64,000 bases of DNA from Candidatus Poribacteria bacterium (GTDB lineage: Bacteria; Poribacteria; WGA-4E; PCPOR2b). The DNA lies in NCBI GenBank assembly GCA_003635265.1, contig PYIZ01000053.1, positions 124,001 to 188,000 of the forward strand. The letters are read 5' to 3'. The notes beneath the pieces were generated by a model, which ran no database searches, was not told the origin of the DNA, and saw only the letters and a list, made by a program, of their open reading frames with translations. Positions within the stretch are counted from its first letter, which is position 1, and each line of letters begins with the position of its first letter. Below, one piece after another: positions 48,398 to 50,394 of this stretch. A program made the position numbers and the translations under genes.

Positions 48398-48895
48398 TTA
48401 GTTGTTACTATCTTGAAGCCCTTTCAAGGCTGCGACAATCTCCTCATGTTTGGGGAGATCAAACTGGTGTGAGCCAATATACATGAACCGGATAATTAAA
48501 TCCTTATCAATCACGAATGTCGCAGGACGAGCAATGTTATACGCATCAAGTCCCAGCCAATGATACACCCCATAGCTTCTGATCACCTCGCGCTCCTTAT
48601 CCGTAAGCAACGGAAAGGTGATATCGTGTGTTTCCGCGTATCGGCGCACCTCACGGGGCCATTGACCAACGATACTAAGCACAGCAGCCCCGAGTTCTGT
48701 GTATTCGCCGCTAGCGCGCTGAAGGTCTCCTAACTGGCGACGGCTGTTCGGTCACCACGTCCCCCGAAAGAAGGCGAGAATGACAGGCTGCCGACTGAGA
48801 TATGACTCAAGGCTCACAGTTTCACGCTGAACAGAGGTCAATGTGAATAGCGGTGCCTTATCACCGATGTTGAGAATCTTGTTTTTTCTTGGCAT
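48398..48895 (-). CDS. Peroxiredoxin-like (AhpC/TSA) redoxin with in-frame TGA, putative selenoprotein
   Basis: From ATG 48895 to the stop at 48398 the minus strand encodes 165 residues if TGA at 48754-48752 is read through. The N-terminal part (NIGDKAPLFTLTSV, then VILAFFRGTW) and C-terminal part (PNSRRQLGDLQRASGEYTEL, FPLLTDKEREVIRSYGV, ARPATFVIDKDLIIRFMYIG) join in one frame to a complete AhpC/TSA redoxin. Family members have W-C-P-x-C here; TGA replaces the first Cys (codon 48) and Ser the second. No other Cys exists. A small hairpin (AGG-AGA-CCT, 48731-48723) 21-29 bases after TGA is in bacterial SECIS range. Alternatives are a pseudogene or a sequencing error. Confidence 0.65.
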
Positions 48896-49025: not shown

Positions 49026-50228
49026 TCAACCCTGTTCCAATTCTTGACGAATCCGTTCAGCAAGCGTCTCAGTGTTGCTGTCGTTCAAATGCAGCGGATT
49101 AATCATGAGTTTTCCTTCTGGGAGGCCGCCGTGGCTGACATAAATCGGTGGGGCACCGTTGCGAAGACTTTGACAGATCTCCATCGCGCCTCGACCGGCA
49201 GCCGCCTCATCAATCGCGATTTCCAAAAGCGGAAGGCTTTCGCCATCACCTTTATCACGGAGGTCGCATTGCACAGGGGAACCATTTAATTTTTCCGCGA
49301 TCCGGTTAAGACGTGCGTGCGCCTTGGAGGCTTCTTCATCATAAGCACCGGACGTGAAAAGCTGCAACGCCACAAGCAGGGCAATAATCTCCTCTTTCGA
49401 CACCTTAAAACCACGTCCTATTCCGTGCCGGGGGATGCCCCCGAGTTTCGTCTTATCAATAAGCGATGCGGGTGGATTCCACAATTCTAAATGGTCGTCC
49501 ATATCTAACAACTGTGCGACTGCCGGTCCTATGAGATTTCGCCGACCGCAGAGAATCCCCGTTGACTGGGGACCACGAATAGATTTTCCGCCGCTGAACG
49601 CTACCAAATCGGCACCCGTCGCAGCAATCGATTTAAGGTTGCTACGCGGGGGTAGTTCACCCGCTGCATCTACCAATACAGGAAATTGGTGCCGATGTGC
49701 GGCATCAACGAGTTCTTCGAGCGGCGGTCTAGAGGTTGGGCTGTATACATAAAGGATGCCCGCAGTATTCGGTCCAACAGCTGCCTCATATTCCCACGCT
49801 TCAGTTCGACGTACCCCTGCATTGGCAACGATTTCGTTGAAGCCGACCTCAACGAGTCGTGCACCGGCGGCTCTTACGGCGTGATCGTATCCACTTCGTT
49901 GCTCACGGGCGACGATAAACTCGTTGGGAAATCCGTCGCAGTGCGGTAGCTGCTCCATTCGTCCCAAGTCGTAGCCTGTTAAAATTGCAGCGGTCCCCAT
50001 GGTTAGGGCGGACGCAGCACCCGCGGAGACCAAACCGGCTTCCGTTCCGGTCGCCTCCGCGATAACTTTGGACGCAGCTGCCTGAAGTTGTTCAAGCGGC
50101 ACCGATGCACGCGCAGCTTCATTAAACGCCTCCAGAACCTCATCGGGCATCGGCGCACCGCCGAGACGGGTCACCGCTCCGGATGCATTGATAATCGGTG
50201 TAACGCCAAATTGTTCATAAATTCCCAT
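49026..50228 (-). CDS. SelA-like/DgaE-like PLP-dependent enzyme
   Basis: About 400 residues from ATG 50228; an earlier ATG at 50324 would run through repeat DNA. The opening GVTPIINASGAVTRLGGAPM resembles the SelA superfamily start. TGTEAGLVSAGAASALTMGTAAIL, PVLVDAAGELPPRSNL and the PLP Lys in LVAFSGGKSIRGPQSTGIL follow. True SelA has about 460 residues with an N-terminal domain; this shorter form fits the D-glucosaminate-6-phosphate ammonia-lyase (DgaE) type. It reads toward the redoxin gene that carries the in-frame TGA, 130 bases away. Confidence 0.75.
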   Translation of the reverse strand: MGIYEQFGVTPIINASGAVTRLGGAPMPDEVLEAFNEAARASVPLEQLQAAASKVIAEATGTEAGLVSAGAASALTMGTAAILTGYDLGRMEQLPHCDGFPNEFIVAREQRSGYDHAVRAAGARLVEVGFNEIVANAGVRRTEAWEYEAAVGPNTAGILYVYSPTSRPPLEELVDAAHRHQFPVLVDAAGELPPRSNLKSIAATGADLVAFSGGKSIRGPQSTGILCGRRNLIGPAVAQLLDMDDHLELWNPPASLIDKTKLGGIPRHGIGRGFKVSKEEIIALLVALQLFTSGAYDEEASKAHARLNRIAEKLNGSPVQCDLRDKGDGESLPLLEIAIDEAAAGRGAMEICQSLRNGAPPIYVSHGGLPEGKLMINPLHLNDSNTETLAERIRQELEQG

Positions 50229-50243
50229 AGATATTTCCAATCC

Positions 50244-50394
50244 GCTCATGTTAAGATTTAGTGCAAAGAAACCGAGTTTTTTTGGCAAAACTCGGTTTCT
50301 CTTCGTGTTCCGCTCGTTCCGCAAGGCGGAATCCCGATGTATCGGGACGAGAATCCTCGATGAATCGAGACTTGCACTTTCTTTTTACGTGAGC
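50244..50394 (+). repeat. MITE-like element B
   Basis: A 151-base unit with ends GCTCATGTTAAGATTTAGTG and CTTTCTTTTTACGTGAGC (imperfect inverted repeats, each continuing into a GTGCAA/TTGCAC core) and the same AAACCGAG/CTCGGTTT central hairpin as copy A. An extra about 60-base palindromic stretch (CGGAATCCCGATG-type) lies in its right half. It fills the divergent gap between the SelA-like and AAC(3)-like genes and may affect both promoters. Confidence 0.65.

Follow-up and report, generated by a model that had tools for sequence, protein, structure and literature searches.

A probable single-selenium redoxin of the AhpC/TSA family in Candidatus Poribacteria

The window, a stretch of 64,000 nucleotides from a Candidatus Poribacteria assembly, carries a redoxin gene (Table 1) in which an in-frame TGA at codon 48 is almost certainly read as selenocysteine (Sec); this would make the product a small redox enzyme whose one reactive selenium has no partner cysteine. 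The explanation preferred as a whole, to which a probability of about 0.7 is given, is a single-domain AhpC/TSA selenoprotein with a thioredoxin fold, which would be recoded by way of a SECIS hairpin with an AGUU(A) loop and would complete its catalytic cycle with an outside thiol. The original prediction described two half-frames in phase, separated solely by a TGA with FFRGTW before it and PNSRRQLGDLQ after it, and this is precisely what is found at 48754-48752; with the TGA taken as Sec the translation runs VILAFFRGTWUPNSRRQLGDLQ across the site. The start (MPRKN) and the entire frame are kept in relatives.

Table 1. Features of the redoxin gene and its putative recoding signal (window coordinates).
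Feature	Position	Strand	Remarks
Sec-containing AhpC/TSA-family redoxin gene (predicted)	48398..48895	minus	165 codons + stop TAA; single frame broken only by TGA
In-frame TGA = codon 48, almost certainly read as selenocysteine	48752..48754	minus	TGA in 45/45 Poribacteria loci; Cys (TGT) in ortholog L119
Active-site motif GTWUPNSRRQL, codons 45-55	48731..48763	minus	invariant in 46/46
Probable bSECIS hairpin GUCGCC-AGUUA-GGAGAC	48725..48741	minus	stem of 6 positions including a G/A mismatch; loop 16 nt after TGA, G second in loop; CAGTTR in 46/46
AGG-AGA-CCT hairpin of the original prediction	48723..48731	minus	letters present, 3 bp; without conservation outside the genus

A contig scan for relatives found 73, of which 45 (L017-L061) are Poribacteria loci with 59-88% protein identity, the nearest lying in records titled Candidatus Poribacteria; all counts out of 46 given here refer to the window redoxin together with these loci. 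Compared with its four nearest relatives, the window redoxin has a dN/dS ratio of 0.06-0.12 before the TGA (codons 1-47) and of 0.09-0.12 after it (codons 49-165), so that the two halves are under similar constraint and purifying selection and, because of the latter value, the codons after the TGA can be regarded as translated protein. It had been argued that a random stop was unlikely to fall on this codon, and with TGA at codon 48 in every Poribacteria locus and both flanks constrained the pattern is indeed far beyond chance. A search of 84 whole genomes of the phylum, with matches accepted at E 1e-25 or better, yielded the redoxin in 70; within the same order 66 of 72 genomes have an ortholog with 60-99% identity and no match was found by this search in the other six. 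The order-level orthologs contain one in-frame TGA in 65 of 66 cases and none in the remaining one (G027), the position of the TGA having been verified in 29 fetched loci (L110-L138) and the others being known by stop count only; many of the genomes known by stop count are the same as those behind L017-L061. Among the 29 fetched loci 28 have the TGA, and the one from G027 is a natural CPNS ortholog (L119) in which the hairpin letters CAGTTGGCGG are still present and whose genome keeps SelB and tRNA-Sec. In a tree of 30 chosen rows the UPNS proteins form one clade (support 99/99) with this Cys ortholog nested inside it, suggesting that Sec was replaced by Cys in that lineage. Class-level matches were found in four genomes with 34-42% identity, three of them with a TGA (UPYC, UPDC, UPDC) and one, G010, with a CPVC form; neither SelB nor tRNA-Sec was detected in G010, a genome only 61% complete. 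The same tree does not settle how the deeper UxxC branches are ordered, and UPNS may be derived from UPxC. Besides L119, Cys occupies the Sec position in two looser relatives (L062 and L139).

The genome to which the window belongs (5.3 Mb in 53 contigs, 88.5% complete, 4.1% contamination) possesses selA, selB, selC and selD, all above curated cut-offs: SelA, SelB and tRNA-Sec lie together on contig C10 and SelD, which has an in-frame TGA of its own, on contig C21. SelB was found in 75 of the 84 phylum genomes and tRNA-Sec in 73. Among the 65 genomes bearing the TGA, SelB is present in 60 and either SelB or tRNA-Sec in 62; no SelB match was obtained in G028, G031, G047, G058 and G059 (73-83% complete), and in three of these, the MAGs G028, G031 and G059, neither was found. 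Taken with the conservation of the TGA and the selection around it, this machinery supports the predicted insertion of Sec at codon 48. The upstream neighbour of the redoxin gene (49026-50324, minus strand) encodes a PLP enzyme resembling SelA (partial Pfam SelA match, E 1.1e-11), which is not the genuine SelA of contig C10. A search covering about 3 kb looked for seven neighbours, the query for the SelA-like one being taken in the wrong frame. Only L017-L020, the four loci of the same genus, share them; beside the remaining 41 loci, some with short flanks, none was detected. Neighbours are thus not shared past the genus and give no hint of an operon.

Several further Sec proteins are predicted in the same genome. 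Redoxins with TGA at the matching site have the motifs UPSC, UPSC, UIFC and UPKD, the first three in the contexts EFUPSC, TYUPSC (in the second domain of a longer protein) and RWUIFC (L091, L092 and L093). The fourth, RGAYUPKD with a UxxD motif (contig C45, 94789-95325; L096 and L176-L183), keeps the TGA in all 8 of its matches, from 8 of 58 order genomes, and has a hairpin CUCC-AGUU-GGAG with its loop 16 nt after the TGA; it is a second redoxin whose motif lacks a resolving Cys. On the same contig (about 120249-121016; L095/L100) there is a peroxiredoxin-like protein of two tandem domains, each with TGGU, and hence two predicted Sec in one protein. The 30 SelD loci that were fetched (L108, L147-L175) fall into two Sec types, TCGUAAK with AGUU (7) and AGUASK with a loop that by eye is of GGG type (23). 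The letters CCAGTTGG, whose loop follows the TGA by 16-17 nt, are found in 7 of the 30 SelD loci, including that of the window's genome, and in the UPKD redoxin (8/8), whose loop is not an independent case because it is homologous at the site (QL codons); CAGTT is absent from the other 23 SelD loci within the 60 bases looked at.

The nature of the recoding signal is a matter in which the original prediction has to be amended. The small AGG-AGA-CCT hairpin that it put forward does exist as letters and its AGA loop is at the tip of the strongest hairpin (-11.1 kcal/mol) of a mini bSECIS scan of the window, but the 41 relatives further away, which give 37 distinct rows, can form its three pairs in 36 (as G-U), 15 and 2 of the 37, and in L018, a relative with an identical nine-letter stretch, the scan picks an AGUUA loop instead; the -11.1 hairpin is set aside because it is not conserved. 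What is conserved is an overlapping hairpin. Numbering from the T of TGA as 1, its first arm is positions 14-19. In the window and L017-L020 this arm pairs with 25-30 and encloses AGUUA; the remaining 41 sequences pair it with 24-29 and enclose AGUU. The window's genus keeps the stem only in its shifted register. Five of the six pairs form in 40 of the 46 sequences and all six in the other 6, whereas at least five of six were reached by 13.6% of synonymous-codon shuffles and 35% of third-base shuffles. In the 41 clade-2 sequences three of the pairs are broken, in 16, 15 and 5 sequences respectively, and no two are ever broken together (expected 5.9, 2.0 and 1.8), an absence reached by 0 of 5000 permutations, although the sequences are related and these are therefore counts and not probabilities. 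The loop codons point in the same direction, for Gln54 is CAG and Leu55 is TTR in 46/46 whereas Gln and Leu at other positions use mixed codons, and the mean synonymous diversity ratio is 0.51 over codons 49-55 versus 0.78 over 61 other conserved columns (Mann-Whitney p 0.008); codons 2, 4, 8 and 12 near the start are equally narrow (0.09-0.33), so that narrow choice is not unique to the loop.

By the published bSECIS model the loop is of 3-9 nt, lies 16-37 nt from the UGA and has a G in its first two positions, while the upper stem has 4-16 bp and an energy of -7.5 kcal/mol or lower (as given in the available part of PMC13188914). The loop of the window hairpin (AGUUA, spacing 16) lies within these bounds; its stem, which consists of 2 bp, a G/A mismatch and 3 bp, would do so only if one mismatch is allowed, and its energy of -4.9 kcal/mol is above the limit. 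When the energy limit was applied in a free scan 19 of 46 sequences passed, compared with 45 of 184 shuffles; the mini-scan gives some hairpin in 45 of the 46, but since 130 of 184 shuffles do so too it is not evidence by itself. A standard pair count in a 7-pair version does not exceed its controls (73/500 shuffles for pairing, 102/500 for score), the 7-pair helix is nearly as good when slid by -3 or +3, column-wise covariation of the hairpin is not above controls, and a search of the whole window against Rfam at the gathering threshold gave nothing. Simple folding of four window stretches was no better than dinucleotide shuffles, and the case for the hairpin therefore rests on comparison and not on energy. 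Across the 46 sequences codons 51-58 are the most consistent stretch tried, with a mean folding z of -1.09 that is negative in all of them; the window's own value is only -0.22. On this comparative evidence the AGUU(A) hairpin is probably the bSECIS element.

The redoxin matches PF00578 (AhpC/TSA) with an E value of 5.6e-30 and 104.3 bits (gathering cut-off 26). It falls below the cut-off for PF13911 (AhpC-TSA_2; 15.3 bits, cut-off 27) and for NF040769 (SelL-related redox protein; 57.1 bits, curated cut-off 120), all its NCBIfam matches being below cut-off, and PF00255 (glutathione peroxidase) is not among its three Pfam matches up to E 10, although HMMER filters may drop very weak ones. An AlphaFold2 model built from 32 rows (pLDDT 89, pTM 0.88) is closest to the Bcp4 structure 3hjp (TM 0.87) and the mycobacterial 1-Cys peroxiredoxin AhpE, 1xvw (TM 0.84). 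AhpE resembles the window redoxin in having a single catalytic residue without an internal resolving Cys, but that residue is a TxxC-type Cys and not UxxS. The register of the active site differs from what was first proposed, namely that the TGA stands exactly at the peroxidatic Cys. In three ungapped alignments with the Bcp-type proteins 3hjp, 2cx3 and 2ywn, and in a further alignment with TxxC rows, Sec48 is opposite the Thr/Ser of TxxC and Ser51 opposite its Cys, which we take to be the peroxidatic Cys; 2cx3, 2ywn and the TxxC rows have Cys at the Ser51 position, whereas the 3hjp chain has Ser. The CxxC and UxxC relatives (L062, L139-L142) place Sec at the first Cys of the motif, and by this alignment Sec48 is at the N-terminal, nucleophilic Cys position of a thioredoxin-like CxxC. 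The PxxxT/SxxC active site of peroxiredoxins is absent, with Ser51 in place of the peroxidatic Cys and Sec in place of the Thr. The Sec peroxiredoxins of PF00578 (PxxxTxxU) share the fold and superfamily, but there Sec is the peroxidatic residue, where the window redoxin has Ser and carries its Sec three residues earlier. The other features proposed for the motif were borne out: its second position is Ser in all 46 sequences and the window protein has no other Cys. Within the first 166 codons 26 of the 46, including the window redoxin and one cut short (L060), have no Cys and 20 have Cys156, one of them (L043) with Cys68 as well; five of these 20 have, by eye, further Cys in a longer tail. There is no conserved resolving Cys among the 46.

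The location, chemistry, substrate and reductant of the redoxin can be proposed as follows. SelB would bind the short AGUU(A)-loop hairpin 16 nt after the UGA and deliver Sec-tRNA-Sec, so that the UGA would give Sec as the N-terminal residue of the ancestral CxxC/UxxC; with the second Cys of the motif replaced by Ser (UPNS) there would be one selenol and no conserved partner thiol. No leader was seen on the window redoxin, which is why it is probably cytosolic. From the position and conservation of Sec48, Sec-dependent redox catalysis is very likely. Sec48 may attack peroxide or another oxidised substrate to give Se-OH or a selenosulfide, which an outside thiol, such as thioredoxin or a low-molecular-weight thiol, would resolve as in 1-Cys peroxiredoxins and in glutathione peroxidases, the latter having a thioredoxin fold. 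Within the selenoprotein reading a peroxidase reduced by an outside thiol is the first choice, by somewhat more than even odds, because of the fold and the loss of the second Cys, and the lack of the PxxxTxxC motif and of a PF00255 match counts against it. Glutathione is doubtful as the reductant because no full glutathione synthetase was found in the 88.5% complete genome, only a partial match of 69.7 bits against a cut-off of 299.

The same selenoprotein might instead be a thiol-disulfide or selenosulfide reductase of the monothiol CxxS type, which is ranked second and considered possible with odds clearly below even. It is favoured by Sec at the thioredoxin nucleophile position, by the CxxC/UxxC relatives, by the missing PxxxTxxC motif and by matches to ResA and SelL-related models (all below cut-off), but the closest folds are peroxiredoxins, 1-Cys AhpE among them, and a protein that has lost the second Cys is a poor candidate for dithiol exchange. 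Readings that dispense with Sec fare far worse. That the TGA is decoded as another residue, be it Trp through a code change or whatever leaky-stop read-through supplies, is highly improbable, for TGA is also an ordinary stop that terminates 19 of the 48 long non-overlapping ORFs in the window, the genome has the full Sec machinery, and the sole sense codon at the site in an order-level ortholog is for Cys. Least probable of all is a sequencing error or a decaying pseudogene; the draft state of the source assembly would allow for either, but both are already contradicted by the TGA in 45/45 loci of other assemblies, some titled as chromosomes, and by the dN/dS after the TGA.

That Sec redoxins are an established theme in bacteria holds for Sec in AhpC/TSA proteins, and the U-P-x-S form without a resolving Cys, which had been thought notable, is unusual but has parallels. 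UxxS is known for arsenate reductase, rhodanese and an AhpC/TSA protein assigned to cd02970 in Table 1 of PMC13188914, which states a coverage of 119 families and subfamilies, and filed as PF13911 in the accessible part of PMC9312934. In that table the cd02970 protein, MDX2448127.1, for which PMC13188914 credits a 2007 Olavius symbiont paper, is the only AhpC/TSA entry with UxxS, while PF00578 is represented by TxxU and UxxC/UxxU. The window redoxin shares UxxS and the AhpC/TSA superfamily with the cd02970 protein but belongs to another subfamily, being set apart by family score (15.3 bits for PF13911 versus 104.3 for PF00578). Closer in Pfam terms are the Prx-like thiol:disulfide oxidoreductase selenoproteins (PF00578, UxxC/UxxU; listed in PMC13188914), also with Sec at the first Cys of CxxC, from which the family of the window redoxin differs by the invariant Ser and the missing resolving Cys there; the UPxC class-level relatives seem by eye to carry lipoprotein-like leaders, unlike the window redoxin. 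Glutathione peroxidase (PF00255, UxxT in the same Table 1) has the U-x-x-(S/T) layout in common with a redoxin that itself has no PF00255 match. No report of the Poribacteria UPNS redoxin was found in the openly readable literature on Poribacteria selenoproteins or selenocysteine, or on UxxS redoxins. Different Sec motifs in one domain are counted as different subfamilies in PMC13188914, and as far as its catalogue table goes the UxxS layout in PF00578 is absent; we call the variant new and the kind, a one-Sec redoxin, known.

Plain ORF calling splits the redoxin in two, and an ORF list cut off at 90 aa retains just a 94-aa fragment of it, which illustrates how a conserved Sec enzyme can go unnoticed when calling cuts at TGA. 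Poribacteria are linked with sponges in the available part of PMC5649159, a link that does not come from the record of the window's genome, and SelA and SelB are there said to co-occur in most symbiont bins; the redoxin may be a concrete member behind the enrichment of SelA/SelB that has been reported there for sponge symbiont bins. The UPxC relatives, UPNS and the CPNS ortholog form a natural series in which to ask what the loss of its partner Cys means for the role of Sec. It may tentatively be proposed, at a little under even odds, that the family is a lineage-wide enzyme with one selenol, in which the peroxidatic residue of a peroxiredoxin scaffold has become Ser and catalysis rests on Sec at the thioredoxin/GPx nucleophile position without a thiol partner. 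If this were true, a GPx-like active site would have been reached from a UxxC-type AhpC/TSA ancestor, the GQWPRE segment, fully conserved in 46/46, would supply candidate GPx-like Gln/Trp partners, and almost every member of one order of Poribacteria would have retained the arrangement.
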